Shown: one piece after another, positions 2,900-41,741 of the stretch | How positions within the stretch are numbered: the stretch's first letter is position 1 | Layout: every line of letters starts with the position of its first letter | NCBI GenBank assembly: GCA_022567155.1 | Contig: JADFHN010000008.1 | Coordinates: 1-64,000 of the forward strand | DNA length: 64,000 nt | Origin: Bacteroidota bacterium | Lineage (GTDB): Bacteria > Bacteroidota > Bacteroidia > Cytophagales > Cyclobacteriaceae | Direction: 5' to 3' | Made by a program: the position numbers and the translations under genes | The notes under the pieces: generated by a model | The model's database searches: none | Told to the model about the DNA's origin: nothing | Seen by the model: the letters and a program-made list of their open reading frames with translations, nothing else

Positions 2900-2950
2900 G
2901 TTTAAAGCCCGATACCGGGTTAGCATTTTAATGACATATTCAATCAACCG

Positions 2951-25551: not shown

Positions 25552-25587
25552 TACTAAAAATATTAGTAAATACTAAAATAATTAGTA
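25552..25587 (-). promoter_or_regulatory. Tandem 17-bp operators (TACTAA-N5-TTAGTA) upstream of the polymerase gene
   Basis: Site one, 25552..25568, is TACTAA-AAATA-TTAGTA; site two, 25571..25587, is TACTAA-AATAA-TTAGTA. Both have perfect 6-base arms, and their centres are 19 bases apart. On the minus strand a TTTG lies upstream of site two at promoter-like distance, and a TAGTATTT element falls between the sites, so repressor binding would cover the promoter. The same operator occurs at 37118..37196 and 41704..41741. Confidence 0.8.
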
Positions 25588-25711
25588 TAATTAATCAAAT
25601 ACCAGCACAACTTCACAGATATGTTTTGATTTTTAACAGCGTCGGGAAGGCACAAATAGTTTTCAGGAGTGGAAGTCCGGCGTATCGAAAACCTTGTTTA
25701 GATCAAGGAAA

Positions 25712-26962
25712 TTATTGGATGGTCTGGTTTTCCAAAAAAATCGCATGGACTTTACCTTGATTGGCATTCGTATCAAGTTTCTTCCAGATCTTAAAGCAAA
25801 TATCTATATCGCCATCCTGGTCCACATCACCAAACAATGCATCGTGTCCGCCCAGATTTTGATCAAAGACAACTCTTTCTTTGAAAAGTCCCCCTTTACC
25901 ATCCAGATTTTCCCACAAAAAACCCATGGGGGTGCGTCCTAATGGTAATATTTTATCATCCTCCTGCTCCACAGAAAAAATATCCAGATCGTTGTCATTG
26001 TCAAAATCCGCTACCGCAAGAGAATGCAATGATCCCCTCCGACCAGCGGTAGGGAGTGGCAACAAATGGACCGTAAACTCCGGATTACTGCCACCGGTAC
26101 TTTCGAGCCATGCTCCTCTCGAGTCAACCTGGTCACCAGACATGATGATTATATCGTTATCGCCATCTCCATCCATATCCAGGATCCAGCTCCTGCATGA
26201 AAGCCCCCAATAGCCGACACTACCAAATGGAAGGAATTTCCTAACCCATGTTTGCCCATTATTTTCGTTTTGATACCACCTGCCGGGCATAACAATGTCA
26301 TTATCACCATCCTGATCCAAATCGCCAACACCACCTGGAAAGAACCCAGCGTGGATATCGTCCAGTTCGTCCACAATGTCGTTAGTGACTGTAATCCTTT
26401 GCCAATTAACATCCTGAGCCGGATTTTCCGGTATCTTGTACCAAAAGCAACCCTCCCGGTCGCCAAGGACTAAAATATCACCAACAGCGTCACCGTCCAG
26501 GTCTTTTACTACAATATCATGTATTTCCGTTTTAATACGGGAATCATATTCGTATCTGATGAATGGTTCTTCTTTGGGGTTCTGCGGGTTTTTAAACCAA
26601 AAACCTCCGATAACCAGGTCCATCCATCCATCCCCGTTGACGTCATGGGCTGCACCTCCTAATTGAGCGCTTGGTATTTCTGCCAAATCATGCCTGACCC
26701 AATTGTCAGCATTTATAAATTCAAACCAAAAGACTTTATCAGAAGTGATGGAAAAAGCGAAATCCAGATCTCCATCATTGTCAAAATCAGCAAGGGCTGG
26801 AGTACCGTAGCGAGAATCCGGTGTGTCGGGAAGATCATTCGTGATAAAATAATGCTTAAAAATCGTTTTAGTATCGGCATCGAAAGCACTTTTTTCATTG
26901 TTTGAGCATCCCATCCAAAGGGATATATAAAGCAGATAAACGAAATATTTATTCATATTCAC
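25712..26962 (-). CDS. FG-GAP/VCBS-repeat lipoprotein
   Basis: The 416-residue protein has a lipoprotein signal (LYISLWMGCS, lipid Cys19) followed by six to seven VCBS/FG-GAP-type repeats with calcium-binding-like Asp clusters (DFDNDGDLDF, DVNGDGWMDLV, DLDQDGDNDIV, DMDGDGDNDII, DFDNDNDLDI, DVDQDGDIDI). These form a beta propeller on the cell surface or in the periplasm, commonly for carbohydrate or protein binding. No catalytic domain was seen. It is a single-gene unit. Confidence 0.87.
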   Translation of the reverse strand: MNMNKYFVYLLYISLWMGCSNNEKSAFDADTKTIFKHYFITNDLPDTPDSRYGTPALADFDNDGDLDFAFSITSDKVFWFEFINADNWVRHDLAEIPSAQLGGAAHDVNGDGWMDLVIGGFWFKNPQNPKEEPFIRYEYDSRIKTEIHDIVVKDLDGDAVGDILVLGDREGCFWYKIPENPAQDVNWQRITVTNDIVDELDDIHAGFFPGGVGDLDQDGDNDIVMPGRWYQNENNGQTWVRKFLPFGSVGYWGLSCRSWILDMDGDGDNDIIIMSGDQVDSRGAWLESTGGSNPEFTVHLLPLPTAGRRGSLHSLAVADFDNDNDLDIFSVEQEDDKILPLGRTPMGFLWENLDGKGGLFKERVVFDQNLGGHDALFGDVDQDGDIDICFKIWKKLDTNANQGKVHAIFLENQTIQ

Positions 26963-27488
26963 TGGTGTTATCTTAAAAATTCGTCACAACATTTAACAGG
27001 CCACTTAATTGTATTAAAATCTTTCATGTTTCGAGTTACGATGTATTAAATATCTTTCACCTTTATCATCCACATTTAAATCTGTATAACCAATTTCAAT
27101 TACAACAAGATAATACTCAATTATTTATTTTTTTCTCTTTTCCTGATTCATACTATAAAAGTAATACTTTGGTTTCCAAAATCCATCGTTCCGGTAAATC
27201 CCTTATGGCTTTTTTACAGGTTGGCGCAAGTCTCGCTACCGCTCCTGGCCGTCGCCTGAAGCCGTGCACCAGCATGTAGCTTGAGATTTTTAATAAGATA
27301 ACCTGCAAGTAATTTTTGAAAAGGTACCATAACAAAAAAGTTGATGGCAATCTAAAAACATGTATATTCAGACTAGTGTCATGTCACTTAAATGAAGGGA
27401 TTATAATCACATTATAGTTAATAAAATTGATAATTATATCTTTGTTGTTCTTTTAAAATAATTAAACTCTAATTAAACTCTATTGGGA
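26963..27488. other. Gene-free spacer with one repeat-like segment
   Basis: No gene is supported here. A segment near 27215..27290 (TGGCGCAAGTCTCGCTACCG and the GC-rich stretch after it) is richer in GC than its surroundings and partly matches 35268..35296 (TGGCACAAGTATCTCACC). A TAnnTTTG-type element, TATCTTTG, lies at 27437..27444, 45 bases before the start of the next gene, but no TTG was found at the proper distance upstream. Confidence 0.4.
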
Positions 27489-30400
27489 ATGAAATTCCTG
27501 AAGTACTTGTTTTCAATGTCGTTTGCCGGGGCGTTATTATTAGCGTTTGGAGTAATCATTTGTGTAGCCACTTTTATCGAAAATGATTTTGGGCCAATCG
27601 GTTCACAATCGATTGTGTACAAAGCGCGTTGGTTCGAATTGCTGCTGGCAATTATGGCTGTGAATATGATTGGCGTTATCGTTGTCCAAAAAATGTGGAG
27701 GCGTGAAAAGTGGACTAATTTACTTTTTCACTCGGCTTTTATCACCATTCTCATAGGCGCCGGTATTACCCGGTTTTTTAGCGAAGAAGGGTTGATACAC
27801 ATCAGAGAGGGGGAGGCCTCGAACAGCTTTGTGTCAGACGCTACTTACATGCGTGTTGAAGTGCTTGATGGTGGGAAAAAGCAAGAATTCAACAATAAAG
27901 TACTTTTTAGCCGGATAAAGAATAACAAGTTCGGTAAGGAAATTAAAGTAAACGAAGGTACCCTGAAGCTCAAACTGAAACACTTTATTTTTAACGCCAA
28001 ACAAATTGCCGAGCCTGACCCGGGCTACGGGCAACCGATTGTAACCGTGGCGGTAGCCGGAGAAAATGGAAGGGAATATAGTTTCATCAAAAATGGTGAA
28101 TACATCCATATTAACGGGTTACTTCTTGGGTTAAACACAGCGCATGACCATCTCAATTCCATTCGATTTATTGAAACAGACTCAGGGCTGGTAATACAGG
28201 CTGAAATGCCGGTTAATACCCTGAACATGGATACCCAGGAAGCCGGTAAAATAGAGGCTCACACTACGGTAATAGCGCCCTACAGAACCCTTTTTACCGC
28301 TAACGGAGTAAATTTTGTGCTCAGCGATTATCATCCCGAATCTACCATTAAAATTATTTCTGCACCGGCCGAAAACAATGAACAAACCCTTGACGCCATT
28401 GTGCTGGAAGCAACGTTGGGTTCACAAAAACAAGATGTGGTTTTATTTGGTGGTCAAGGTTTTATCGGTCAACCGGTTTTTCTGCAGTTGGGTGATGTTA
28501 ATATGAACTTGTCTTATGGAGCTAAAAGGATAGAAATACCTTTTTCTATCGAGCTTAAGGATTTTCAATTAGAGCGATATCCCGGTTCCATGAGCCCGTC
28601 ATCCTATGCCAGCGAGGTGATTGTTCATGATGGTAACACCAGTTTTCCATTTAGAATTTATATGAATCACGTACTTGATTATGGCGGTTATCGCTTTTAT
28701 CAATCTTCATACGATCAGGACGAACTGGGTACCGTGTTATCTGTGAATAGAGACCGGCCCGGTACCATGATCACTTACGTGGGGTATATTTTGTTAGCCT
28801 TTGGGTTGATTTCCATTGCATTTTCAAAAAATACAAGATTCCGTCAATTATCAATAATGATTGATGCCGTTCATGAAAAACGCCAAAAACTGGCAGGTGT
28901 ATTCGCTTTGCTGTTTATGCTTTCAGCAAGTTTGGTACAGGCACAAGAGTATCCGGAGGTTCCTTCCAGGCAGCGGGCCGAAGCTTTTGGGAGACTTATC
29001 TATCAATCGAATGAAGGACGAATGGCTCCTATAAATTCATTGGCCAATGATTTACTCCGCAAAATATACAAAACCAGCAGTTTGGGAGGCTACAGCGCTG
29101 ATCAGGTAATATTGGGCATGATGAGCCAACCGCGTGAGTGGCAAAAAGTTAAAATAATAAAGGTAAACCATGCTGACATAAGGAAGGAATTGCTAATCGA
29201 CTCAAAATATGCCAATTACAATCATTTTTTTGACGAAACAGGAAATTATATTTTGCTCGAAAAAGTGAATGCAGCTTATGCTAAAAAACCTTCGATACAA
29301 AACACCCTAGACAAAGAACTTATTAAAGTTGATGAACGCCTCAATATCTGTTATATGATTTACCAGGCCAGTTTGCTTAAAATTTTCCCCGTTCCCATCG
29401 ACCCTGACCATCTTTGGGTTGCCCCGTTTGACCGTGAATTTTATGGCTTATCCGGTACGGACTCAATTTTCGTCAGGAATGCATTGGTTGAATATTTCAA
29501 AAGTTTGTCTAGTGGTGATCTGACATTGGCTGATGACATACTCAATGCGATAAAGAACTATCAGTCAACGTATGGCGCGGCTGTTTTGCCCAGTCCCATT
29601 AAAGTAAATCTTGAAATAAAGTTTAACGAGTGGAATATTTTTGAAAAGCTATTTCCTTATCATATGCTAGTCGGATTTGTGCTGCTCATAGTTTTGTTTG
29701 CCAGGGTACTCAGCCCTAACCTTTTACTGAAATGGCCTTTTAAAGTGTTGGTTGCACTGATCTTTGCCGGCTTTTTGGTACATACTGTTGGCTTAGGTCT
29801 ACGATGTTATATATCGGGCCATGCTCCCTGGAGCAACGGGTATGAAGCTATGATTTATATTGGCTGGGCAAGTTTGCTGGCCGGGTTGGCATTTGGAAAA
29901 AGATCACCAATGACATTGGCTGTTACGGCTATATTGAGTGGTATAATACTATTTGTCGCTCATCTGAGCTTTCTCGACCCTCAGATCACTAACCTGGTTC
30001 CTGTTCTGAAATCATACTGGCTCACCATTCATGTAGCTACAATTACCGCCAGTTATGGGTTCTTTGCTTTAGGGGCTTTGTTGGCTTTTGTCAATCTGGT
30101 TACTATGATTTTCAAAACTCCTGAAAATAACCTGCGTTTGTCACTTTCCATTAAAGAGCTGACGTATGTAATTGAAATGACCCTGACTATCGGGTTGATG
30201 TTGCTTACAATCGGCAACTTTTTAGGTGGAGTGTGGGCCAATGAATCCTGGGGGCGCTACTGGGGTTGGGACCCCAAAGAAACCTGGGCGCTGGCTTCCA
30301 TCGTGTTTTATGCTTTTGTTATTCACATGCGATTTATTCCCGGTATGCAAAGTTTATTCACATTCAATTTTGCTTCGTTAATTACTTTTGCTTCTATCAT

Positions 30401-30575
30401 TATGACCTTTTTCGGTGTAAATTATTACCTGTCAGGATTGCACTCCTATGCAGCGGGAGACCCATTGCCCATTCCAACTTTTGTGTATTACACAATTGCA
30501 GTAGTAGCCATCATCAGTTTGATGGCATATTGGAACAATAACCGATTAATATATAGCTATGAATCAGAAGAATAA
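27489..30575 (+). CDS. ccsA: ResB-CcsA fusion, cytochrome c biogenesis (System II)
   Basis: The protein (about 1028 residues from ATG 27489; a TTG two codons earlier is unnecessary) joins ResB and CcsA. The N-terminal half has three membrane helices (11-30, 50-70, 82-100), a large periplasmic ResB domain and a helix near residue 435. After an exported linker comes the CcsA half, from about residue 715, with at least seven helices and the heme-handling tryptophan-rich motif (WGRYWGWDPKETW). System II exports heme and ligates it to CxxCH motifs outside the membrane. It lies directly upstream of nrfHA, whose products need many hemes attached, so it is likely dedicated to, or at least supports, that system. 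Confidence 0.93.
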   Translation: MKFLKYLFSMSFAGALLLAFGVIICVATFIENDFGPIGSQSIVYKARWFELLLAIMAVNMIGVIVVQKMWRREKWTNLLFHSAFITILIGAGITRFFSEEGLIHIREGEASNSFVSDATYMRVEVLDGGKKQEFNNKVLFSRIKNNKFGKEIKVNEGTLKLKLKHFIFNAKQIAEPDPGYGQPIVTVAVAGENGREYSFIKNGEYIHINGLLLGLNTAHDHLNSIRFIETDSGLVIQAEMPVNTLNMDTQEAGKIEAHTTVIAPYRTLFTANGVNFVLSDYHPESTIKIISAPAENNEQTLDAIVLEATLGSQKQDVVLFGGQGFIGQPVFLQLGDVNMNLSYGAKRIEIPFSIELKDFQLERYPGSMSPSSYASEVIVHDGNTSFPFRIYMNHVLDYGGYRFYQSSYDQDELGTVLSVNRDRPGTMITYVGYILLAFGLISIAFSKNTRFRQLSIMIDAVHEKRQKLAGVFALLFMLSASLVQAQEYPEVPSRQRAEAFGRLIYQSNEGRMAPINSLANDLLRKIYKTSSLGGYSADQVILGMMSQPREWQKVKIIKVNHADIRKELLIDSKYANYNHFFDETGNYILLEKVNAAYAKKPSIQNTLDKELIKVDERLNICYMIYQASLLKIFPVPIDPDHLWVAPFDREFYGLSGTDSIFVRNALVEYFKSLSSGDLTLADDILNAIKNYQSTYGAAVLPSPIKVNLEIKFNEWNIFEKLFPYHMLVGFVLLIVLFARVLSPNLLLKWPFKVLVALIFAGFLVHTVGLGLRCYISGHAPWSNGYEAMIYIGWASLLAGLAFGKRSPMTLAVTAILSGIILFVAHLSFLDPQITNLVPVLKSYWLTIHVATITASYGFFALGALLAFVNLVTMIFKTPENNLRLSLSIKELTYVIEMTLTIGLMLLTIGNFLGGVWANESWGRYWGWDPKETWALASIVFYAFVIHMRFIPGMQSLFTFNFASLITFASIIMTFFGVNYYLSGLHSYAAGDPLPIPTFVYYTIAVVAIISLMAYWNNNRLIYSYESEE

Positions 30576-30882
30576 ATGACCAAAACTTCTTGAGAACCAA
30601 CGAAATCCGGAATCGTTCGTATGCTATTTAACCCAACTCACACTAAACGGCTTACATCGATTAAAAAGTGTAATAATTGTCATTTTAATTAATCCACATT
30701 CACGTTTCACTTCGGGCGTATGCTGTAGTCGAATACTATGGAGGCGGCGCGACGGAACGTCCTGGGGTTTAATACAATTTAATTTAATTTTTTTGCTCTT
30801 TTTCATGCTATATTTGAAATCAAGTGAAAAAAAATACCATCGATAATTTTATACGACCTTTGAAAATTAAATATTATTACGT

Positions 30883-31461
30883 ATGAAATTGATGTCCTAT
30901 TTAAAGCCTCCTCCACAATGGATAATTTTTGTAACTGTATTGGTAGGAGCATTTGTGGGCTTGTTACTGTATAGTGTTTATATTTCTAATGCATACTCAT
31001 ATCTTTCAGACGACCCAAAAACATGTGTTAACTGTCACGTAATGATGCCTGAATATGCCACATGGCAACATAGTTCTCATAGCAGGGTAGCCACTTGCAA
31101 CGACTGTCACGTGCCTCACACCAATCCGGTGGCAAAATATGCCTTTAAGGCAATGGATGGGCTGGGTCATGCTACCGCATTTACCCTGCGAAAGGAATCT
31201 CAGGTAATTCGGATAAAAGAACGGGGGAGCGTTGTTGTTCAGGAGAATTGCAAACGATGTCATAGTGAACTGGTTTTAAATGTAGGGTTATTAAATATTA
31301 CACCTGAAAAAGCAAGACATGGAGAAGGCAAATTATGCTGGGAATGCCATCGTGAAGTACCCCATGGAAGAGTAAAGGGCCTTTCTTCAACGCCCAATGC
31401 CAGGGTTCCATTGCTGGGTAGCCCTGTGCCTGATTGGTTAAGAAAACAGACGAATAAATAA
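30883..31461 (+). CDS. nrfH: Cytochrome c nitrite reductase small subunit
   Basis: The 192-residue protein has an N-terminal membrane anchor (about 13-33) and four CxxCH heme sites at residues 48-52, 72-76, 123-127 and 152-156. This is the NapC/NirT-type tetraheme NrfH, which oxidises menaquinol and passes electrons to NrfA. It is followed by nrfA after 10 bases. A menaquinone cluster lies in this window at 43..49 kb. Length and heme spacing are normal. A TATATTTG element at 30809..30816 might be its -7 box. Confidence 0.94.
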   Translation: MKLMSYLKPPPQWIIFVTVLVGAFVGLLLYSVYISNAYSYLSDDPKTCVNCHVMMPEYATWQHSSHSRVATCNDCHVPHTNPVAKYAFKAMDGLGHATAFTLRKESQVIRIKERGSVVVQENCKRCHSELVLNVGLLNITPEKARHGEGKLCWECHREVPHGRVKGLSSTPNARVPLLGSPVPDWLRKQTNK

Positions 31462-31471
31462 AACATAAAAA

Positions 31472-32998
31472 ATGAGTACAATAAGACAAACTGCAAAAAA
31501 ACGGCCATGGTTACTATGGGTTTTGTTTGCTCTAACCGTATTAGTTGTTTTTATTTTAGGCTTACTTTCGACCAGTATTATGGAACGAAGAGTTGAAACA
31601 TTGTACATCGACCGGCCGAAAATAGAAATTGCTCCATTTGAACCTCGGGGAGAAATTTGGGGTAAAAATTATCCTAATCAATATGACTCCTGGAAATCTA
31701 CTGAAGATACCAGCTTTATGAGCAAGTATAATGGCAATGTCAACATTGATATGCTTGAAAGGTACCCTTCGCTGGTAATTTTATGGGCAGGATATGGTTT
31801 CTCTAAAGATTACAACCAATCGAAGGGGCACATGTACGCAATAAAGGATCTTATGCACAGCCTCCGCACCGGAGCGCCAAAAACACCGGATGCTGGCCCT
31901 ATGCCATCCACATGCTGGGCTTGCAAAAGTCCGGATGTGCCTCGCTTAATGAGTGAAGTAGGCCCAAGGGAATTTTACTCCGGTAAATGGGCCAAATATG
32001 GAGGTGAGCAAGTAAACCCGGTAGGTTGTGCCGATTGCCATGATGAGAAAACAATGGATTTAAAAATAACACGTCCTGCTTTAATAGAAGCCTTTGAAAG
32101 AAGAGGAGAAGACATTACTAAAGCTACGCATCAGCAAATGCGTTCGCTGGTATGTGCTCAATGCCATGTTGAATATTACTTTAATAAGAAAAAACCTGCC
32201 GAAGGTGTGCCATACCTGACGTTGCCATGGGATAATGGCATAACAGTTGAAGCTATGGAAGAATATTATAATAATATAGAATTTAGTGACTGGACACACC
32301 AACTAAGTAAAGCCCCTATGCTCAAAGCCCAGCATCCTGGCTACGAGTTGTATTCACAAGGTATTCATGCCCAACGAGGTGTTTCTTGTGCCGATTGCCA
32401 TATGCCCTACCGTTCGGAAGGTGGGGTAAAATATACCGATCATAAAATTCAAAGCCCTTTAAATAACATTTCCAATTCTTGTGTGGTTTGCCACCGTGAG
32501 AGTGAAGCAGTACTAAGGAAAAGCGTTTATGACAATATGGACCGCGTAGTTGAAGCCAGAAGTATATTGGAGCATTTGCTTGTAAAACTACATATTGAAG
32601 CGGAGTTTGCCTGGAAGAAAGGTGCAATGAAAGAACAAATGAAGGATATTCTCATGGACATTCGTCGTGGTCAATGGCGGTGGGATTATGCCGCAGCGAG
32701 CCATGGTGGTGCTTTTCATGCTCCGGTGGAAGCATTACGTGTGATAAGCACAGGTATTTCAATCGCCCAGGATGGAAGATTGAAATTAGCAAGGGTGCTT
32801 TCCGATCTTGGATATAATGAAGTCGTTCCATTGCCCGATGTTTCAACTAAGGCTAAAGCTCAAGCATATATTGGTCTCGACATGGCTAAACTTAATGCTG
32901 AAAAACTGGATTTTATTGAAAATATACTTCCACAGTGGTTGGAAAAAGGTAAACAAAGAGAGTCTGCATATACAACCAAATCAGTTACAGGTAGTTAA
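31472..32998 (+). CDS. nrfA: Ammonia-forming cytochrome c nitrite reductase (catalytic subunit)
   Basis: The 508-residue periplasmic enzyme reduces nitrite to ammonium with six electrons. It has an N-terminal membrane/signal segment (about 14-36), the hallmark CWACK heme 1 site with lysine (residues 148-152), and four CxxCH sites (CADCH, CAQCH, CADCH, CVVCH). Conserved active-site regions with a Tyr and a His (QRGVSCADCHMPY) are present. It forms a complex with NrfH upstream. The TRGAPKTPDAG and AASHGGAFH segments match the family. Confidence 0.95.
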   Translation: MSTIRQTAKKRPWLLWVLFALTVLVVFILGLLSTSIMERRVETLYIDRPKIEIAPFEPRGEIWGKNYPNQYDSWKSTEDTSFMSKYNGNVNIDMLERYPSLVILWAGYGFSKDYNQSKGHMYAIKDLMHSLRTGAPKTPDAGPMPSTCWACKSPDVPRLMSEVGPREFYSGKWAKYGGEQVNPVGCADCHDEKTMDLKITRPALIEAFERRGEDITKATHQQMRSLVCAQCHVEYYFNKKKPAEGVPYLTLPWDNGITVEAMEEYYNNIEFSDWTHQLSKAPMLKAQHPGYELYSQGIHAQRGVSCADCHMPYRSEGGVKYTDHKIQSPLNNISNSCVVCHRESEAVLRKSVYDNMDRVVEARSILEHLLVKLHIEAEFAWKKGAMKEQMKDILMDIRRGQWRWDYAAASHGGAFHAPVEALRVISTGISIAQDGRLKLARVLSDLGYNEVVPLPDVSTKAKAQAYIGLDMAKLNAEKLDFIENILPQWLEKGKQRESAYTTKSVTGS

Positions 32999-33015
32999 CA
33001 TCAGCTTATTTTTAG

Positions 33016-33178
33016 GGTAAGCCGCCTCTTTCTCTTTACGTCGAACAGAAAGGCACAATTATCACTATTGCTCAATACCCAGACTGGAAGACTCAGAGTG
33101 GCGTTCTTATAGACCATTTTTATAATCAGCTACAAATGCAATTTGCTGCTACGTTGGGTTCCTGGGGTAAAATGTGTG
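33016..33178 (+). other. Short coding-like remnant after nrfA
   Basis: One plus-strand frame stays open for about 60 codons (33016..33198) and reads like protein (SLYVEQKGTIITIAQYPDW, then QSGVLIDHFYNQLQ), with no start codon. It overlaps the end of the convergent peptidase gene. The family was not recognised. It may be a gene remnant or chance. Confidence 0.25.
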
Positions 33179-35110
33179 TTATCTTTCAAGTTTTATAGGT
33201 ACTTCGATATATCCGCCCCGTGTTGATAAAACTTTCACCTTTCCTTCCACACTTTCTTTTCCTTTTACATGCACCATAAAACGTACGGTTTTGCTTTCCC
33301 CGGGCGCCGTATAACCCGCCCGGATGGTTTTATCATGTGTTTCAGGTTGAGTGATGGTCACTACGGGGTCATTTACTTTCATTAATTCTTTTTCAAACTC
33401 CAGTTGCGCCCGGTCTTCACGCACAATTTTAATAAGTTGAGCCTGCTTCAGCGCAGTGGGAAGGTTGCCTTTGTTTGTCCATGTTACGGTAATTGTGTAC
33501 GTGGCGTCCTCTTTGTCCTTTTCCATCTGTTTTATTTCTACCTGATCAATGACAAGCAGGGGCAGGTCTTTGGCCATCGCCACGTTAAACAACGCCTGAC
33601 GGCGGGCCCATTTCTCAAGCTGATCAGGAGGCCCGTTCTGTGCAAAGAACTTGGGGTGAAAGCCACCGATTTCCACTTCTCCAAGCACCGGATGCGTAAA
33701 CGGCTCCCATTCCCTGAATCCCTTTCCGCCATTTTCTTCTTCATCCCATTGCAGGCCGTCGTAGTCGTCATAAATACCGTCGTTGTTATAGTCTTTGTGG
33801 CGGCCGCCATTCCACAGTTCGTCACCGTACCAGATGGCGCCGTAGTAGAAATAGCCGAAATCCGGCCCGTGCCCGAAAAGGGGAGAAGGCCTGGAGGGGT
33901 CACCGGTTACCTGGTTGACAGGATTACGCGTCATATAGGTTTCATACACATCGCCCGCCCAGGGATATTCGGTGATGGAAAGACCCAGCTTGTCATATTT
34001 CTCATAATAAGCCAGGTCTTCCGGAAACATGCGTTCAACGCTTTTGGAGGTAGAAGGAGGACGCAGGTGCATAGGCACTCGTGTATCCATCGAATTGGCA
34101 ACCGACACATTAGGATGGGTAAGGAGCCACATCACCACGGCGCGGCTTTCCGGCTCGCTCATTGGCTGTTCGCCGGCGCCAAACTGGGTATAACCGCGTT
34201 TGGTAAGGTCTTTATCCGTATCCGGACGCCAGTTCTCAGGGTAGTTGCGATGCAGGTCGAGGCCGCCTACACCGTCTTCGTTGTATTTGCCGTCGCCGTC
34301 GTTATCAATCCCTTCGCTGATCACCATCCAGTCGCCTTTGCCTTCCGGCACCCGTTTCATCAGCCGTCCGGTAGTGTCACGGGGATCCAGAATGTGTGTG
34401 CCCTTATCTTCATCACCCGGTTTTACTTTATATCTGATGGAATAGATAATGCCGTCACCGTCAAGGTCTTCGTAGGGGTCTTCATCCACAAGGCCGTCAC
34501 GGTCGCTGTCGTGGGGCCTGATGCTGCTGCGGTTACGCTGGGCAGTGTGGAGGTAAAGGTTAGAGCCGTCCGGGTTGTTTTGTGGTTTCAGATAGATGGC
34601 GCGGGTGTCAATCAGGTGAGTGATTTCTTCGTCTTTCCCATAGTTTTCGAGCAGGTATCTGATCATCCAGAGTATGGATTCGCTGCTGGTGATTTCCCCG
34701 CTATGCCTTCCGCCTTCAAAAAACGCAGCGGGTTTATCGGTATCTTTTCCGGTTTCTTTGTTGGTAAGCGTAACCTGCAATATAGGCCTGCCTTCAAAGC
34801 TCTGTGCTACTTCATACAGGTCCATGATGTCGGGGTATTGTGCTGCCCAACGCTCCAGCCAGGTGTACATGACATCCACCGTATGGTAAGTGTCGAAAGT
34901 CAGGGTTTCGCCGGCTTCATATTCCACCTCCGGATGGCGGTATTGCTTAAAAAAACTAATGCCGTGCCGTTGTCCCTTCACGGTGTACCATACGGAGTCT
35001 TTGTCGGATTCCGGCCAGGAAGGTGTATGCAGGGGACGATAACCCTGGGCCAAAAGTGAACCGGTGATCAACATAGTGATGCATAAGGTTGTAAGGTTTT
35101 TGATTTTCAT
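33179..35110 (-). CDS. Secreted M14-family zinc carboxypeptidase
   Basis: The 643-residue protein has a signal peptide (cleavage near residue 21) and an M14 carboxypeptidase domain. Zinc ligands are seen in GGRHSGEI (His136, Glu139), with a substrate-binding NNPDGSN segment and a later ligand histidine expected near the HLRPPS region. Acidic Asp-rich inserts (DSDRDGLVDEDPYEDLDGDG) resemble calcium-binding loops. A C-terminal beta domain follows (about 540-643). It would cleave peptides outside the cell or in the periplasm. A 551-codon open frame on the opposite strand is a by-product of the GC-rich third positions. Confidence 0.88.
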   Translation of the reverse strand: MKIKNLTTLCITMLITGSLLAQGYRPLHTPSWPESDKDSVWYTVKGQRHGISFFKQYRHPEVEYEAGETLTFDTYHTVDVMYTWLERWAAQYPDIMDLYEVAQSFEGRPILQVTLTNKETGKDTDKPAAFFEGGRHSGEITSSESILWMIRYLLENYGKDEEITHLIDTRAIYLKPQNNPDGSNLYLHTAQRNRSSIRPHDSDRDGLVDEDPYEDLDGDGIIYSIRYKVKPGDEDKGTHILDPRDTTGRLMKRVPEGKGDWMVISEGIDNDGDGKYNEDGVGGLDLHRNYPENWRPDTDKDLTKRGYTQFGAGEQPMSEPESRAVVMWLLTHPNVSVANSMDTRVPMHLRPPSTSKSVERMFPEDLAYYEKYDKLGLSITEYPWAGDVYETYMTRNPVNQVTGDPSRPSPLFGHGPDFGYFYYGAIWYGDELWNGGRHKDYNNDGIYDDYDGLQWDEEENGGKGFREWEPFTHPVLGEVEIGGFHPKFFAQNGPPDQLEKWARRQALFNVAMAKDLPLLVIDQVEIKQMEKDKEDATYTITVTWTNKGNLPTALKQAQLIKIVREDRAQLEFEKELMKVNDPVVTITQPETHDKTIRAGYTAPGESKTVRFMVHVKGKESVEGKVKVLSTRGGYIEVPIKLER

Positions 35111-35434
35111 TTTTTTATTGTTTGTTCTTACTTTTTTCGTATGAGATTGCAGCTCAATTTATGAAACTCTTTTGAATACCTGACAACGTTTATAACAGAA
35201 TATTACCGGTTGTAAAAAGTAAACCCTGGAGCTTCTACCACAGTCGGCCAGACCAGAGTAGAATAGATTGGCACAAGTATCTCACCACCGCTCCTTACCG
35301 ATGCTGGAATACTGCGCTAGGTTGGAAGTAAGTCGTATTCAATATAAGAATCCAAACAACCAAAGAGGTATTTTTTTATTAAAACCGATTTCGATGTCAT
35401 CAGCCACAATGTATGCATTTGATTGATATTTTCT

Positions 35435-35457
35435 CGGACACCAGTATTTAGTGTCCG
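35435..35457. repeat. Palindrome CGGACAC-N9-GTGTCCG
   Basis: Seven-base perfect arms surround CAGTATTTA. The core CGGACACCAGTA matches the ends of the 204-bp element at 17231..17434. It lies in a roughly 700-base gap between genes, and may be the joined ends left after element loss. Confidence 0.55.
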
Positions 35458-35500
35458 TCTATAAATTCAGTGTTTAGTTCTGAAAGTTTGCTATCAAGGC

Positions 35501-35719
35501 TTGCGAAGCCCGAAAAATGTGAGTTTACATTTCGTAAATGACCATTTTGAGGGCAAGTGTAACGCAGATAGCGGACTTTATGGACAAACACTAATTAGTA
35601 ATAACTTATTGCTTACCGTAAAAACCAAAAGAGTCAAATCGGAGTCTGCTGCTCTGGCGATGGCTGAAACCCTACCTCTGGACCGGATTGATGAACTTGT
35701 GAAATCCGTCTTTCAATAG
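35501..35719 (+). other. Doubtful small open frame
   Basis: The frame gives about 72 residues ending in MAETLPLDRIDELVKSVFQ, which has a protein-like composition, but it lacks a good start codon (TTG) and no family was recognised. It lies between the 35435 palindrome and the 35724 heptamer array. It may be the tail of a lost gene. No other gene is seen in 35111..35826. Confidence 0.2.
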
Positions 35720-35723
35720 GTAA

Positions 35724-35772
35724 GACTCAAGGCTCAAAGCTCAAGACTCAAAGCTCAAGACTCAAGACTCTA
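35724..35772. repeat. Seven-unit 7-bp tandem repeat
   Basis: Seven consecutive heptamers alternate between GACTCAA, GGCTCAA and AGCTCAA, ending in GACTCTA. The motif is the same as at 8545..8568. A second, shorter repeat (CCAACTGCCCACTGCCCACT, about 35801..35820) follows just before the stop codon of dinB. The copy number probably varies between strains. Confidence 0.75.
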
Positions 35773-35826
35773 AGTTATTATACTCAGCATTTGCGAATTG
35801 CCAACTGCCCACTGCCCACTGAAACA

Positions 35827-37014
35827 TCACCCTCTAAACATATTCATATCCATCCGTACCCTCCGGCTTACATCCATAGCTATGGCACGTACCAGTGCGC
35901 CCGATCCGTATCTGGCTTTGATCCTGTCCATGGCCTGATACAGCCTGATGACTTCCTCGGTGTCGTCAAACAGGTTGATCTGGTAATGGCCGTGCACGAG
36001 ATTGCTGAGCCGCACACCCACCAGCCGGAGCCGCATGCGCCGGGTGTATAGCTTGTCGAACAGCTCCAGGGCTAATTTAATAAGCGTCTGGTCTGATGAG
36101 GTGTATGGTATATGCGCCTGTTTGATTTCCGTATCGAAGTTGGAATACCTGATCTTTACGGTAATACAGGAAGTAAGTTTCTTTTTTTTCCGCAGCTTAA
36201 ATGTGAGTTTTTCCACCATGGCAATGAGTATGGACCTGAGCCTGTGTACGTCAATGGTGTCGGCGCTGAAGGTGGACTCGGTGGATATCGATTTTTGCTC
36301 CGTGTAGGGCACTACGGGGGAGTTATCGATGGCATTGGCTTTGTTCCACAGCACGATGCCGTTTTTCCCAAAAGCACTTTGGAGCATTTTCAGTGGCATT
36401 TCGCGGAGCGTGCGCACCGTACGGATCCCCATGTCGTACAGAAACTGCGTTGTTTTTTCGCCTACCATAGGTATTTTTTTTACCGACAAGGGTGCCAGAA
36501 AATCCTGTTCTTTACCTGCAGGGATCTGTTTTTCCCCATTGGGCTTGTATTCGCCTACGGCCACTTTCGATACCAGCTTATTGACCGATAATCCCATGGA
36601 AATGGGCAGGCCTGTTTCGTTGATGATCTTTCTTCGCAGTTCCCTGGCCCATTTGAATGCACCGAAAAACCGCTCCATGCCGGACAAGTCGATGTAGAAC
36701 TCGTCGATGGAGGCTTTTTCGAACAGGGGCGATTCTTCCCTGATGATACCGGTGATGGTAGCGGAAAAACGCGTGTAGGCTTCCATATCACCCGATATAA
36801 ACAACGCATCCGGACAAAGCTGCCGGGCCAGCCGGGCAGGCATGGCCGAATGAATGCCGAACAGGCGGGCTTCGTAACTGCATGAAGCCACTACGCCACG
36901 GTTGCCGGTGCCCCCGATGATCAGGGGTTTGCCTTTCAACCTGCTGTCGCGAAGGCATTCCACGGATACAAAAAAGGTATCCAGATCCATATGAATGATG
37001 GCGCGTTCCGGCAT
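35827..37014 (-). CDS. dinB: DNA polymerase IV, Y-family translesion polymerase
   Basis: The 395-residue protein has the Y-family catalytic residues: HMDLDTFFVSVE near the start (Asp10), the steric region CSYEARLFGI, and SIDEFYIDLSG (Asp/Glu near 107). Thumb helix-hairpin-helix and little-finger domains follow. A clamp-binding motif QINLF is visible at residues 345-349. It bypasses DNA lesions with low fidelity. The divergent intergenic region with the small gene at 37214 carries two copies of the TACTAA-N5-TTAGT(A/T) operator, also found before the dnaE-type gene and the S24 repressor. Confidence 0.95.
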   Translation of the reverse strand: MPERAIIHMDLDTFFVSVECLRDSRLKGKPLIIGGTGNRGVVASCSYEARLFGIHSAMPARLARQLCPDALFISGDMEAYTRFSATITGIIREESPLFEKASIDEFYIDLSGMERFFGAFKWARELRRKIINETGLPISMGLSVNKLVSKVAVGEYKPNGEKQIPAGKEQDFLAPLSVKKIPMVGEKTTQFLYDMGIRTVRTLREMPLKMLQSAFGKNGIVLWNKANAIDNSPVVPYTEQKSISTESTFSADTIDVHRLRSILIAMVEKLTFKLRKKKKLTSCITVKIRYSNFDTEIKQAHIPYTSSDQTLIKLALELFDKLYTRRMRLRLVGVRLSNLVHGHYQINLFDDTEEVIRLYQAMDRIKARYGSGALVRAIAMDVSRRVRMDMNMFRG

Positions 37015-37117
37015 TGTTATTTATTGATTTGGTCATTTGTATCGCTCCGGCAGCACAGACCTAAAGTCTTTGCAGCCGGGCTCCCACTGATGTTTTTCCC
37101 AATAGTTTTAGTTATAT

Positions 37118-37134
37118 TACTAAAATAATTAGTT
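37118..37134. promoter_or_regulatory. 17-bp operator TACTAA-AATAA-TTAGTT (dinB side)
   Basis: This is one of two sites in the divergent region between dinB and the small gene. The right arm differs from the consensus only in the last base. It lies about 104 bases upstream of the dinB start, so it most likely serves dinB. Confidence 0.7.
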
Positions 37135-37179
37135 AATATTTTTATTTTCAATTAAAATGTGTTATATTCACCGTAAAAA

Positions 37180-37196
37180 TACTAAAAATATTAGTT
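37180..37196. promoter_or_regulatory. 17-bp operator TACTAA-AAATA-TTAGTT (small-gene side)
   Basis: The second site ends 17 bases before the ATG at 37214 and has the same spacer (AAATA) as the site at 25552..25568. Its position suits repression of the plus-strand gene. Confidence 0.7.
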
Positions 37197-37213
37197 AAAA
37201 GCAGTATAATTAA

Positions 37214-37474
37214 ATGGAACAAATCAGAAAACTGAAAATAAGCAGTAAAAAGCTGCGATCGGGTAAATGCCAGGTCAAATTCTGCGCAAGTTTATCGGAC
37301 AACAGAGAGCGGTACGGTTATATTCTTGCTGAACCTGGAAGCACGCTGCGGGAGGTAATGATACGTATTATAAAACTTTTGATGAGAGGAAAAAATGCTA
37401 TGGAAAACCATCTTTATTCGGTGGGCGTCCGCAAACAGGTCCTGACAGAATGGATATTTAACCAGGAGATGTGA
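37214..37474 (+). CDS. Small basic protein of unknown function under the predicted S24 operator
   Basis: The 86-residue protein was not recognised. It is rich in Lys and Arg at the start (MEQIRKLKISSKKLRSGKCQ), has a central YGYILAEPGSTLREVMIRIIKLLMRGKNAMENH and no signal or membrane helix. It begins 17 bases after a TACTAA-N5-TTAGT operator and is divergent from dinB. Co-control with translesion polymerases makes a DNA-damage accessory role a reasonable hypothesis, but nothing in the sequence proves it. Confidence 0.65.
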   Translation: MEQIRKLKISSKKLRSGKCQVKFCASLSDNRERYGYILAEPGSTLREVMIRIIKLLMRGKNAMENHLYSVGVRKQVLTEWIFNQEM

Positions 37475-37649
37475 TAATAAAGTAAGGCCACGCATGCAAT
37501 GCGCGGCCACGGTTGTCGGTACATTTGTTATATTCCGGCAATACACAACACCTCAACCCATAAGTAGGTCCATTCATGCAATGCACGGATACAAGTTTTC
37601 AGCTCTCCATTTGACGCATTGAATTAAATTTTTCAAAAAAGTGTTTTTT

Positions 37650-37681
37650 AAATTTAGATAAGCCTAAATTTATTATCTTTG
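37650..37681 (+). promoter_or_regulatory. DtxR-type operator overlapping the feo promoter
   Basis: A perfect inverted repeat AAATTTAG-N6-CTAAATTT (37650..37671) sits directly before a TAnnTTTG -7 element, TATCTTTG (37674..37681). Transcription would start about 7 bases later, some 25 bases before the first ATG. The palindrome fits a binding site for the DtxR-like metalloregulator encoded downstream, so the iron operon is probably repressed by its own product when iron (or manganese) is plentiful. Confidence 0.7.
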
Positions 37682-37711
37682 CTACCAGGAAAACGTATTA
37701 TCGGAATTAGC

Positions 37712-38371
37712 ATGATGAACCTGGCAGAAGAAAATTACCTGAAAACCATTTTCAATCTTTCCGGGGGCGGAAAAAAAAATGTGTCAACAAGTGCAATCTC
37801 GGATTTCATGGAAAACAAACCTTCGTCCGTTACCGACATGTTGAAAAAACTGTCGGATAAAAGCCTTATTAATTACAAGCGGTATAACGGCGCGTACCTT
37901 ACACCAGCCGGAAAGGAAGAAGCCCTGAAAGTGATTCGTAAACACAGGCTGTGGGAGTTGTTTCTTGTAAAGTACCTGGCATTTTCGTGGCACGAAGTTC
38001 ACGAAATCGCTGAACAAATGGAACATGTGAAATCCGGATTACTCATTGACCGGCTCGACAAATTCCTGGGATACCCGGCCACTGACCCCCATGGCGACCC
38101 GATTCCGGGCATTGACGGCAAATACAGGTTGGTAAACAATAAAACCCTGGAAGAGCTTAAAGAAGGAGAGAGTTGTGTGCTCACCGGCGTTAAAAACTCC
38201 TCATCGGAATTTCTGAAATATCTCAACGAAATCAGCATTTCATTGAATACAAGAATTAGGGTACTTAAAAAGTATGCATTTGATGGTTCTGTTTTGGTTA
38301 AGATCGATGAAAAACACCGGCAATCGGTTTCCAAAGAAGTAAGTAAGGATCTGTTAATAACGGTGATTTAA
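37712..38371 (+). CDS. DtxR/MntR-family metal-dependent transcriptional regulator
   Basis: The start at ATG 37712 (MMNLAEENYLKTIF) gives 219 residues; the open frame extends upstream into the promoter, so the longer form is rejected. A winged helix-turn-helix (about 5-65, with VSTSAISDFMENKPSSVTDMLKKL) is followed by a dimerisation/metal domain (HRLWELFLVKYLAFSWHEVHEIAEQMEHV and DPHGDPIPG) and a C-terminal SH3-like/FeoA-type domain (about 140-215). Binding Fe(II) or Mn(II) allows it to repress. It begins the feo operon and probably binds the palindrome at 37650..37671. Confidence 0.9.
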   Translation: MMNLAEENYLKTIFNLSGGGKKNVSTSAISDFMENKPSSVTDMLKKLSDKSLINYKRYNGAYLTPAGKEEALKVIRKHRLWELFLVKYLAFSWHEVHEIAEQMEHVKSGLLIDRLDKFLGYPATDPHGDPIPGIDGKYRLVNNKTLEELKEGESCVLTGVKNSSSEFLKYLNEISISLNTRIRVLKKYAFDGSVLVKIDEKHRQSVSKEVSKDLLITVI

Positions 38372-38383
38372 CTGTTTTATCTG

Positions 38384-39421
38384 ATGATAAACCCGGTACT
38401 CGCATTATCCCTCTTTTTTGTTGTTTTATTGGTTGTTTTCCTGCTTTTCAGACCGGAAAAGGGATTTTACTGGAAATTTGCCGGAATGCTTGCAAGCAAC
38501 GAAAAGACACTCATGGAAGACGTTCTGAAACAGATTTACCACATGGAGCATGCAGGAAATACCGGTTCACTGCTAAGCCTTAAAGGAACCCTTGATATTA
38601 GCGAAGAAAAACTGGTAAAGGTAATTGCAGGCATGGAATCCAAAGGGCTGATACGAACGGATGGCACAAAAATTTCGCTTCGACAAGAAGGCAACGACTA
38701 TGCGATCAAAATAATAAGGGCGCATCGGCTATGGGAAAAATACCTTGCTGACAAAACGGGAGTTGACAAACGGGAGTGGCACCATCTGGCCGAACGTGCC
38801 GAACACAAGCTAACCAAAGAGCAGGTGGATGATCTGGCACTATCGCTTGGCGATCCAAGGTACGATCCGCACGGTGACCCAATTCCCACAAGTAAAGGAG
38901 ATATGCAATACATACAGCATGTGTCGCTTCCTTTATTTCCGGTAGATAAGCAAGGTTACATTGTACACATTGAAGATGAACCGGAATCCATTTACGAACA
39001 GATTATAGCTAAAAATCTACAGGTTGGAGCTCAGATAAAAGTTATTGAAGCAAATGAAAGGCGGATCAGGTTCAGTTCGGAGGGAGAGGAGGTCGTTCTT
39101 ACTCCCATTGTAGCAAATAATATTAGTGTTGCCGAACAACGTCGTTCAGGTGTATTCAGAAAAAATACACGAAAGCTTTCGGGTTTGAAACTTGGAGAGA
39201 AATCAAAAATCGCAGGTCTGTCGCGGGAGTGCCGTGGAGCAAACAGGAGGAGGTTGCTTGACCTGGGGTTTGTACCGGGTACGGAAGTGGAAACCTGCCT
39301 TTCGAGTCCGCTCGGAAACCCACGGGCATACCTGATCAAGGGCGCGAGTATCGCCCTCAGAAAAGAGCAGGCAGATCTGGTTTTAATTGAAATGAATAAT
39401 GACATAGCATATGGCAACTGA
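38384..39421 (+). CDS. feoA: Membrane-anchored DtxR-like protein fused to FeoA
   Basis: The 345-residue protein has an N-terminal membrane helix (about 5-22, LALSLFFVVLLVVFLLF), a DtxR-like winged helix and dimerisation domain (about 45-170, with HRLWEKYLADKTGVDKREWHHLAERAEH and DPRYDPHGDPIPTS), a linker, and a C-terminal FeoA domain (about 270-340, LGEKSKIAGLSRECRGANRRRLLDLGFVPGTEVE). The arrangement suggests a FeoA subunit that also senses metal next to the transporter. Its last 11 bases overlap the FeoB G-domain gene. DNA binding from the membrane is possible but untested. Confidence 0.85.
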   Translation: MINPVLALSLFFVVLLVVFLLFRPEKGFYWKFAGMLASNEKTLMEDVLKQIYHMEHAGNTGSLLSLKGTLDISEEKLVKVIAGMESKGLIRTDGTKISLRQEGNDYAIKIIRAHRLWEKYLADKTGVDKREWHHLAERAEHKLTKEQVDDLALSLGDPRYDPHGDPIPTSKGDMQYIQHVSLPLFPVDKQGYIVHIEDEPESIYEQIIAKNLQVGAQIKVIEANERRIRFSSEGEEVVLTPIVANNISVAEQRRSGVFRKNTRKLSGLKLGEKSKIAGLSRECRGANRRRLLDLGFVPGTEVETCLSSPLGNPRAYLIKGASIALRKEQADLVLIEMNNDIAYGN

Positions 39422-40214
39422 GGCAAATTGTGATGGATGTGCATTTAACAATGCCGCTAACTTAAAAAAGCTTGGCGTGAATGTATCAAATGTGAACTTT
39501 GTAGTGGCGCTGGCCGGCAATCCGAATACCGGTAAAAGTACGGTTTTCAATGCGCTTACCGGATTGAAGCAACATACCGGCAACTGGCCCGGAAAGACCA
39601 TAGCCAGAATGGAAGGTGGATTTTCCTATAATGACAAGAGGTATAAGTTGGTGGACCTGCCGGGAACCTATTCACTTTTATCTACAAGCGAGGATGAAGA
39701 AATTGCACGTAATTTTATATTGTTCGGCAATCCGGATGTTACCGTGGTGGTGGTAGATGCCACGCGGCTTGAACGAAACCTAAACCTTGTTTTACAGATA
39801 CTTGAGATAACAAAGCGGGTGGTGGTGTGTCTGAACCTGCTGGATGAAGCCAAACGGCATCATATAAAAGTGGATGAACGTGTACTGGCACGTGAACTTG
39901 GCGTACCCGTGGTAGGTACATCCGCCAGGTTTAATAAGGGTATAGATGCATTAATAAAGGTTGTGCATGATGTGGCTACCGGCGAAATTATTTGCAAACC
40001 ACACGTTTTAAAGAGTATTTCCGGGAATATCAGGCATGCGGTTAATCGTCTGACAAGTGAGATAGAAAAGCATTTTGAAGGAATAACAAACAGCCGCTGG
40101 TTAGCCATCAGGTTGCTTGAAGGAGATCAAAGCCTCATAGAAGCGCTTGGAGATAACCGTATTGCAGACATGGTTGACAATCAAAATCGTGTAATGGAAA
40201 AAATAGCTGTATAG
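39411..40214 (+). CDS. feoB: FeoB G-domain protein (N-terminal half of the ferrous iron transporter)
   Basis: The 267-residue protein is the cytosolic GTPase of FeoB: P-loop GNPNTGKS (residues 36-43), switch I region with TGNWPGKT, DLPG (82-85), and NLLDEA as the base-recognition motif, followed by the helical GDI-like domain. It ends with TAG at 40212..40214, and the membrane half begins at the next codon in the same frame. GTP hydrolysis or binding gates Fe(II) entry. An N-terminal CDGC pair is present. Whether this is a natural two-gene FeoB or a recent nonsense change is discussed under findings. Confidence 0.9.
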   Translation: MATEANCDGCAFNNAANLKKLGVNVSNVNFVVALAGNPNTGKSTVFNALTGLKQHTGNWPGKTIARMEGGFSYNDKRYKLVDLPGTYSLLSTSEDEEIARNFILFGNPDVTVVVVDATRLERNLNLVLQILEITKRVVVCLNLLDEAKRHHIKVDERVLARELGVPVVGTSARFNKGIDALIKVVHDVATGEIICKPHVLKSISGNIRHAVNRLTSEIEKHFEGITNSRWLAIRLLEGDQSLIEALGDNRIADMVDNQNRVMEKIAV

Positions 40215-41633
40215 ATGGAAAAAAGTAACGAAATAATGTCGCTTGTGTCCGAACTTCAATGGGAAGTAGGTGAGGATTTTCATGATAAGCTTGTGGAGGG
40301 GATTTATTCTGACGCTTCAAGAATTGCCCAAAAAGCCGTATTAAAGGAAGACGGAAAGAAACATTTTAACATCGATGCCGCTATTGACAAGGTGGTAACG
40401 AGCAGAGTTTTTGGTTTTCCGATCATGCTGCTATTGCTGGCTACCGTCTTGTGGGTTACCATTACCGGGGCCAACTACCCCTCGGCAATGCTGAATAATT
40501 TATTGATTGGTATGGGTTATCCGTTTCTAAAAGAGATGGCTGTAACAATCAGCCTGCCATGGTGGCTGACCGGCTTTTTAGTTGACGGTATTTATCTTGC
40601 TATGGCATGGGTAATTGCAGTGATGCTTCCACCAATGGCGATCTTTTTTCCTTTGTTTACCCTCCTCGAAGATTTCGGATACCTGCCGAGGGTGGCCTTC
40701 AACCTGGATCGGATTTTCAGTAAGGCAGGAGCCCATGGCAAACAGGCGCTTACCATGACCATGGGATTTGGCTGCAATGCAGCAGGTGTAGTTGCCACAC
40801 GTATTATTGACAGCCCCAGGGAGCGACTGATTGCGATTATCACCAATAACTTTGCACTTTGCAATGGCAGGTGGCCAACACAAATACTGATAGGGACAAT
40901 ATTTATAGGAGCACTTGTGCCTCCTTACCTGTCAGGTCTTGTATCTGCTGCTTCAGTGGTAGGCATTGCATTGCTGGGCATCTTATTTACATTTATTATT
41001 TCCTGGATGCTTTCCAATACGGTATTAAAAGGGGCAGTATCCACATTTACATTGGAGTTGCCACCATACCGGCCTCCAAGATTCTGGAAAACGGTTTATA
41101 CTTCGCTCATTGACCGTACATTTATTGTGCTGTGGCGGGCCATCATTTTCGCAGCACCTGCCGGTGCTGTAATCTGGCTGGTTTCCAATATCTATATCGG
41201 TGACAACAGCATTGCAGCCAATCTGATACAATTTTTTGATGGGTTTGGTTTTCTGATTGGCCTTAATGGCGTGATACTTCTGGCTTATATCCTGGCCATA
41301 CCTGCTAATGAAATTGTGATCCCAACTATTTTAATGCTTACAGCTATGGTATACGGCGGAACAGGCGTGGGAGCTGGTGAAGGTGTGATGTTTGAGTTTG
41401 ACTCTCAAATGGCTACGGCCGACTTGCTGCATGCAGGCGGATGGACATTGCTTACCGGGCTTAATCTTATGATCTTCAGCTTACTGCATAACCCCTGCAG
41501 TACGACCATTTATACCATTTATAAAGAGACAAAAAGCGCTAAATGGACTACGGTAGCTTCACTTTTGCCGCTTGTAGTCGGTATAATGGTTACTTTTATT
41601 ATAGCACAGGTATGGCGGATATTTATGGGGTAA
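40215..41633 (+). CDS. feoB: FeoB membrane domain (ferrous iron permease half)
   Basis: The 472-residue protein is the membrane part of FeoB with two Gate domains ([14 protein letters not shown] and the later [13 protein letters not shown]-type segment) and about ten helices. It begins with ATG directly after the TAG that ends the G-domain gene, with no spacer, in the same frame. Its first 70 residues continue the helical linker ([17 protein letters not shown]). Translational coupling, or stop-codon readthrough, would give a stoichiometric complex or a fused protein. It imports Fe(II) across the inner membrane. Confidence 0.9.
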
Positions 41634-41695
41634 CATTATAGGTATTTTTAGAAAATCTCTTTTAAGACGCTTTCACAAGAAGTGCACACATTTAG

Positions 41696-41741
41696 TTGCA
41701 ATAAACTAAATAAATTAGTACATTTACTATTAAAATTAGTA
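41696..41741 (+). promoter_or_regulatory. Promoter with two S24 operators before the repressor gene
   Basis: TTG (41696..41698) and TACATTTA (41719..41726) are 20 bases apart, a Bacteroidota-type promoter. Operator one, AACTAA-ATAAA-TTAGTA (41704..41720), fills the promoter spacer. Operator two, TACTAT-TAAAA-TTAGTA (41725..41741), covers the start of transcription and ends 3 bases before the ATG at 41745. Each has one mismatch to TACTAA-N5-TTAGTA. The layout predicts autorepression by occlusion. Confidence 0.8.

Follow-up and report, generated by a model that had tools for sequence, protein, structure and literature searches.

The S24 proteins of Bacteroidetes have been named 'non-canonical LexA' (Sanchez-Osuna et al. 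2021, main text; PMC8565304), and the palindrome CTAA-N5-TTAG was reported there before umuDC, recA, recN, dinB, ruvB and splB and, in several species, before imuA-imuB-dnaE2. In the same main text (PMC8565304) a P. actiniarum protein of this kind bound CTAA-N5-TTAG specifically in an electrophoretic mobility shift assay (EMSA), induction by mitomycin C was reported, regulon size was found to vary among species, and duplication combined with motif drift was proposed for these proteins. We describe here a locus of this kind from a member of the Cyclobacteriaceae, contained in a stretch of 64,000 nucleotides (assembly GCA_022567155.1, contig JADFHN010000008.1, positions 1 to 64,000; hereafter the window), in which paired operators stand before genes for two DNA polymerases, a small protein and a repressor with XRE and S24 domains. 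As far as sequence can tell, the operators match the published motif and the repressor is the same kind of protein, so that the switch has been known since 2021 and is not new. A preliminary description of this DNA had proposed an alternative SOS switch; the proposal is well supported, yet was already in print (main text of PMC8565304), and with the finding placed in the published system such a switch needs no rediscovery. What goes beyond that main text is a family of small proteins encoded beside the repressor gene and a cassette that has probably been split. To the full reading, in which the XRE-S24 protein would be the non-canonical, CI-like LexA of this bacterium, we assign a probability of about 0.85.

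UmuDAb and DdrR of Acinetobacter, whose genes we assume to be adjacent, make up a partly similar system. There an S24 protein that replaces LexA represses error-prone polymerases, and the genus-unique helper DdrR has been shown by experiment to enhance UmuDAb binding (PMC11332147); the likeness is one of working, in part, and a helper role for the window's small protein is a proposal. Should that protein tune LexA or RecA, it would provide a further S24 SOS repressor with a helper of its own, beside UmuDAb/DdrR. The imuA-imuB-dnaE2 genes form a mutagenesis cassette. Like the window, this cassette (named in the main text of PMC8565304) joins a Y-family polymerase and a second DnaE under LexA control; the window differs in that its Y-family gene is of the DinB type, that the two polymerase genes lie 10.3 kb apart and that its DnaE scores below the cut-off of the DnaE2 model. 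The non-canonical LexA group with CTAA-N5-TTAG boxes is nearer: shared with it are the combination of HTH_3 and S24 domains, the Ala-Gly/Ser-Lys set, a terminal helix (in the model), the boxes themselves, the presence of at least two boxes in several promoters, and dinB, a DnaE-type polymerase gene, splB and the gene of the repressor itself among the targets. The window regulon differs in being small (four promoters) and dispersed, in having no recA box and in the co-inheritance of the small protein. The main text of PMC8565304 contains no occurrence of 'hypothetical' or 'small protein', and neither such a switch nor a small partner of lexA was found described for this group in the open-licence literature, PMC8565304 aside.

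The features that make up the putative switch are as follows, in window coordinates; operators are given without strand.

22499 to 25480, minus strand: dnaE-type gene for a second DNA polymerase III alpha subunit, 993 residues, PHP and polymerase domains, candidate target (open reading frame (ORF), Pfam, NCBIfam TIGR00594 above cut-off)
25552 to 25568: operator dnaE-1, exact, TACTAAAAATATTAGTA
25571 to 25587: operator dnaE-2, exact, TACTAAAATAATTAGTA
35827 to 37014, minus strand: dinB, DNA polymerase IV, 395 residues, IMS and IMS_C domains, candidate target (ORF, Pfam, NCBIfam PRK02406 above cut-off)
37118 to 37134: operator dinB/small-1, one mismatch, TACTAAAATAATTAGTT
37180 to 37196: operator dinB/small-2, one mismatch, TACTAAAAATATTAGTT, 17 bp ahead of the small-gene ATG
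37214 to 37474, plus strand: small gene, 86 residues, unnamed family (nothing in Pfam or NCBIfam at E ≤0.001)
41704 to 41720: operator lexA-1, one mismatch, exact CTAA-N5-TTAG core, AACTAAATAAATTAGTA
41725 to 41741: operator lexA-2, one mismatch, situated in the core, TACTATTAAAATTAGTA, 3 bp ahead of the repressor ATG
41745 to 42518, plus strand: XRE-S24 repressor, non-canonical LexA of the Bacteroidetes type, 257 residues, with A101-G102, S139 and K178 (ORF, Pfam, alignment, model, tree)

The six copies of TACTAA-N5-TTAGTA that the preliminary description had listed, in pairs at three promoters, were all recovered, two of them exact (25552 and 25571) and four with one mismatch (37118, 37180, 41704 and 41725). 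At this stringency (no more than one mismatch) the mean from a first-order Markov model based on the window is 0.14 sites, with a maximum of 2 over 200 runs. With up to three mismatches the window holds 38 sites against a mean of 30.5, a figure near chance level that 9 of 100 shuffles reach; since this count is not clearly above chance, only strict sites were counted. The whole assembly (4.09 Mb in 171 contigs, 98.74% complete) holds 15 places when one mismatch is allowed, six of which are those of the window's three promoters; seven of the remaining nine are in coding sequence and just two are intergenic (contigs C22 and C110). At the dinB/small promoter the arms of both sites are conserved, bar the outermost base, in the window and two more genomes of its genus, and the surrounding bases differ. 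Only one genome is comparable at the repressor promoter, showing a single arm-base change in the second site (TTAGTA to TTAGCA), and because the whole region is similar there, these sites do not amount to a footprint. The spacers of the dnaE boxes (AAATA and AATAA) are identical to those of the two dinB boxes.

An autorepression layout had also been claimed for the repressor gene. Sites do precede it, and upstream are GTTG at 41695 and TACATTTA at 41719, which to us resemble the Bacteroidota promoter consensus; if these promoter-like elements are the promoter, the first site would fall in the spacer and the second at the start point.

The repressor combines an N-terminal CI-type HTH_3 domain (PF01381, E 1.4e-15) with a C-terminal Peptidase_S24 domain (PF00717, E 5.5e-9), and the winged helix-turn-helix (HTH) family of canonical LexA, PF01726, is not among the five Pfam families reported at E ≤0.001. 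It is the only PF00717 match in this genome, and Ala101-Gly102, Ser139 and Lys178 are invariant in all 18 aligned rows (the window and 17 of 21 fetched loci). These two observations, and the fact that its own boxes match CTAA-N5-TTAG, support its identity as the repressor. The earlier choice of this protein as the likeliest binder of the sites is thereby supported, with the published EMSA (PMC8565304, main text) made on a protein of the same kind. In the structural model the terminal helix spans residues 233-255, where the predicted local distance difference test score (pLDDT) per block of ten is low to middling (51, 74 and 66). At E 2.4e-6 to 6e-4 the model first matches the lambda-186 hybrid repressor, the lambda repressor and LexA, whereas matches to the HTH are to those of SinR, CapH and DdrO. 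The closest named homologue after that of locus L016, a member of the window's genus, is a Pontibacter protein (L017, 55% identity) with the upstream box TGCTAAAAATATTAGTA; P. actiniarum is likewise a Pontibacter. The same genome contains a second match to the repressor at E ≤0.001, which is not an S24 protein by the PF00717 search.

The two polymerases served had both been described as mutagenic. The identities of the genes, dnaE and dinB, were confirmed, but a mutagenic nature is not established for the dnaE of the window because it scores 467.7 bits against the error-prone DnaE2 model PRK05672, below the cut-off of 939; the other DNA polymerase III alpha subunit of the genome is encoded by a 1195-residue frame on contig C25. 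A further candidate target on contig C90 has three exact CTAA-N5-TTAG cores within 95 bp before its ATG. Its product is a radical SAM protein of the PA0069 family, above the cut-off for Radical_SAM and below that for the spore photoproduct lyase model, and we take this splB-like gene to be the splB (COG1533) of the published regulon. The genome has 28 exact cores, eight in four promoters (five in the window, three at the splB-like gene), 15 in coding sequence and five elsewhere between genes (contigs C22, C48, C56, C111 and C143), none of the last being claimed as a target. The regulon that these sites can support comprises four promoters, those of dnaE, dinB/small, the repressor and the splB-like gene. 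The regulon had been called dispersed; its targets do stand apart in the window, with the splB-like gene as a fourth target and recA as none, although the dispersal is probably secondary, as discussed below.

Relatives point the same way. Of 30 dinB loci, 24 have an exact CTAA-N5-TTAG in the 250 bp ahead of the gene and 28 have one if a mismatch is allowed, this set being the best 30 of 144 genomes with a match, picked by similarity and including the window's own. Before the splB-like gene the box is exact in 17 of 30 loci and present in 25 if one mismatch is allowed (30 of the 40 matching genomes out of 60, again picked by similarity with the window's own included).

Three of the other intergenic places have distinctive surroundings. 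In L057 (G000 C22:8300-12400) a one-mismatch site and an exact core (contig positions 9978 and 10333) lie between genes for MerB (alkylmercury lyase) and for sulphur transport. A single site, TTCTAAAATTATTAGAT, at 2028 in L053 (G000 C111) is just ahead of a 67-residue XRE gene near the contig end. The lone core of L045 (G000 C56:34338) is upstream of a 100-residue HTH_3 gene, which we label as looking like a HigA-type antitoxin.

From the computed sites, gene order, conservation, residues and domain make-up we infer a scheme of binding, RecA trigger, induction, split history and small-protein role. A dimer of the XRE-S24 protein would bind the paired TACTAA-N5-TTAGTA boxes and, once bound, would repress dnaE and dinB, the small gene divergent from dinB, the splB-like gene elsewhere in the genome and the gene of the repressor itself. 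RecA on single-stranded DNA would trigger self-cleavage at Ala101-Gly102 through Ser139/Lys178, and this cleavage would release the two polymerases together with the splB-like, repressor and small genes. The regulon probably arose from a compact cassette, with the repressor and small genes facing dinB and, in some relatives, dnaE after dinB, which would have been split in the genus of the window. The small protein may be a lineage-specific partner that modulates LexA or the RecA filament.

Several results weigh against such a switch. The reversed-pattern control is commoner genome-wide than the motif itself, with 48 places against 15 at no more than one mismatch and, for the exact core, 157 against 28. 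The confidence of the repressor model is modest (pLDDT 71.5, predicted template-modelling score, pTM, 0.46), TM-scores over the whole chain are low, and enzymes of the HppE type come up beside LexA among the matches (E ~3e-4). In the 55-row tree L017 is placed next to the family clade with support of 93-94/84-86 (unstarred) and a long-branch flag, among rows that do not include the published reference proteins. Finally recA, unlike that of P. actiniarum (main text of PMC8565304), has no box: its best site within 350 bp upstream has three mismatches, and recA was dropped as a target in this genome. The motif is not abundant genome-wide, and the signal beyond chance is the clustering of strict sites at three promoters. 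The commoner reversed control, the near-chance count at three mismatches and the lone sites elsewhere could all be put down to chance palindromes in AT-rich intergenic DNA, but with six strict sites where 0.14 are expected, and the same boxes at corresponding promoters across many genera, this explanation has a negligible probability and we reject it on the strict counts, the control notwithstanding. It is very unlikely, too, that the sites serve some other regulator, such as the repressor of a prophage or plasmid, with the S24 gene being no more than a further target. Other XRE genes do exist in the genome, among them the 67-residue one with its own CTAA-N5-TTAG site on C111; yet the repressor is the sole PF00717 match and has the same boxes before its own gene, a P. 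actiniarum protein of this kind binds the motif (PMC8565304, main text), and in a sister clade, considered below, a change of operator accompanies a change in the HTH, though as a single event.

We turn to the small gene. A search with the single sequence matched 31 of the order's 291 genomes, every one within the window's taxonomic family, and a 20-row profile matched 113 of the 148 genomes of that family. In a class-wide search the profile matched six of 395 genomes, all in the window's family (nine members there as listed), and none of the 386 outside, though a distant homologue may have been missed with at most 13 candidates scored per genome. A phage source was considered and dropped, there being no match at E ≤0.01 among 50,697 phage records. 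Of the 113 genomes that carry the small gene, 109 have it immediately ahead of the repressor gene and in the same orientation, the gap between the matched stretches ranging from -1 to 352 nt with a median of 24 nt. Exceptions number four: the window's genus accounts for three, one of which (58% complete) yielded no repressor gene, and the fourth is G300, where 1346 nt separate the two genes. In at least 24 genomes, on a partial list of dinB genes, dinB divergently adjoins the small gene, and the exact core of a CTAA or a TGTT box precedes the small gene in 29 of 30 loci.

The 20-row alignment of the small protein has 11 invariant columns, with SGxxQ...GY as its core. One helix and three strands are suggested by a model whose pLDDT is in the 80s at residues 1-50 and 74 at 51-60; since it was built from two sequences, has a mean pLDDT of 69 and falls under 50 at residues 61-86, we make no claim as to the fold. 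The Pfam matches of the 20 members are all at E 0.07 or worse and those to PDB sequences at E 0.09 or worse, none convincing; Foldseek with the model gave nothing at E ≤0.001, and the best hit of VIA-align (Z 5.9, 5kew_A, the VtrA/VtrC complex) is inside the range that the tool rates common. With matches as weak as these, assignment to a known family or fold was dropped.

As to role, the small protein may, tentatively, be a modulator of LexA or RecA. In its fuller form, which we put forward with equal reserve, the proposal is of a new dedicated family of SOS regulators, made together with LexA from one damage-inducible promoter and tuning its binding or cleavage, in a two-protein switch whose operator would have changed once within the family, from CTAA-N5-TTAG to TGTT-N9-AACA. 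Against this count the 35 of 148 family genomes with no match to the small protein, and evidence that consists solely of gene neighbourhood and operators. In all 29 of the relatives' loci dinB is absent from the ~1.5-kb flanks, so that the constant feature is proximity to the repressor gene and not to dinB. This bears on whether the protein might be a polymerase accessory factor for dinB/dnaE, in an ImuA-like role. That dinB adjoins divergently in at least 24 genomes, and that 10 of 30 dinB loci have dnaE within reach on the downstream side, would suit such a factor, but the gene follows the repressor gene (109 of 113), even where dinB is missing from those flanks, and 11 of 30 dinB loci have a repressor gene without a small gene; we regard this role as unlikely. 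Cell-division inhibitors are encoded beside lexA in Pseudomonas, Bacillus and Corynebacterium, and an inhibitor with a SulA/YneA-like role would be consistent with a lineage-restricted family, adjoining a lexA-like gene, that has LexA-type boxes in its promoter. No membrane segment is visible by eye, however, and no link by family or fold was found, so that this role seems equally improbable. Modulation of LexA or RecA is the role that we tentatively favour.

The 30 dinB loci, which end ~1.5 kb from dinB, fall into 12 with small and repressor genes facing dinB, three with the small gene only, of which two belong to the window's genus, 11 with the repressor gene only and four with neither; in 10 the start of dnaE is within reach downstream of dinB. 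In the window dinB and dnaE are far apart, and the repressor gene and dnaE each have a box pair of their own. L016 has dnaE directly after dinB, and its dinB (2657-3196, JACZXH010000012.1) is without the first 216 residues, operators and small gene being intact; the shortening may be a real deletion or an assembly fault. In G395 the 2 kb downstream of dinB are not dnaE. Either order may be ancestral within the genus, and there may be an assembly fault in the window, L016 or G395. The pieces in the window are probably those of a split compact cassette, dispersed secondarily, although a cassette as the ancestor is to be read with the minority of loci in mind where dinB is beside the small gene. 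The 55-row tree would accord with the small gene having been lost once, in a clade of nine rows (100/100); its repressor rows without a small gene were drawn from dinB loci by choice, and their adjacency to dinB is therefore no result.

Two further features lie in this region.

37097 to 37113, no strand: weak site beside the dinB pair, three mismatches, partly kept in two genus members; may be nothing
37679 to 41633, plus strand: two DtxR/FeoA-domain genes and feoB in two ORFs, between the small and repressor genes and outside the regulon (ORFs, Pfam)

DNA corresponding to the DtxR/FeoA and feoB genes is present in L016 and L151 of the window's genus. The feoB part (39411-41633) consists of two abutting ORFs, of 267 residues (FeoB_N) and 472 residues (Gate, FeoB_C). 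The split looks genuine in the genus because the 472-residue ORF is also separate in L016, and both ORFs are separate in L151.

How a LexA operator changes can be followed in this family as in a natural experiment, one clade carrying another box ahead of dinB and ahead of the repressor operon alike. Thirty small-gene promoters divide into 12 without TGTT-N9-AACA (11 with an exact CTAA-N5-TTAG) and 18 that all have TGTT-N9-AACA and no exact CTAA box; in shuffled promoters TGTT-N9-AACA occurs in a mean of ~0.1 of 18 and a maximum of 2. This motif was first counted in the very data from which it had been derived, and the locus groups had been split by lack of CTAA boxes; dinB promoters form a more independent check. 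There the CTAA box is present in 24 of 30 against none of 14 in the sister-type set, and TGTT-N9-AACA in none of 30 against seven of 14, a count that rises to 12 if the second arm may begin with R. Nine of these 14 come from sister-set genomes, two from the same genera and three (G329, G383 and G392) from other genera; they include near-copies (L194/L195 and L197/L198), a fifteenth region (L200) was dropped as being in the wrong place, and the shuffles were run on small-gene promoters only. A second palindrome, GACA-N5-TGTC, is also present upstream of the small gene (among L071, L073 and L075-L090). It was rejected as the LexA box of the sister clade, since it occurs in 13 of 18 repressor promoters and only one of 14 dinB promoters.

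The 18 sister repressors are one clade in the 55-row tree (100/100). In the HTH the eight sister rows shown share QRTMISAYEDGRSEP, and in seven rows from the other group this stretch reads KRSLVGAYEEGRAEP or a near variant. A link between the operator change and the HTH change is suggestive, and weak in that it is a single event; it is weakened further by rows outside the family (L018, L029 and L034) which, with other helices, also carry CTAA boxes. Several of these genomes have a second repressor gene beside dinB, which fits the published idea of duplication and motif drift.

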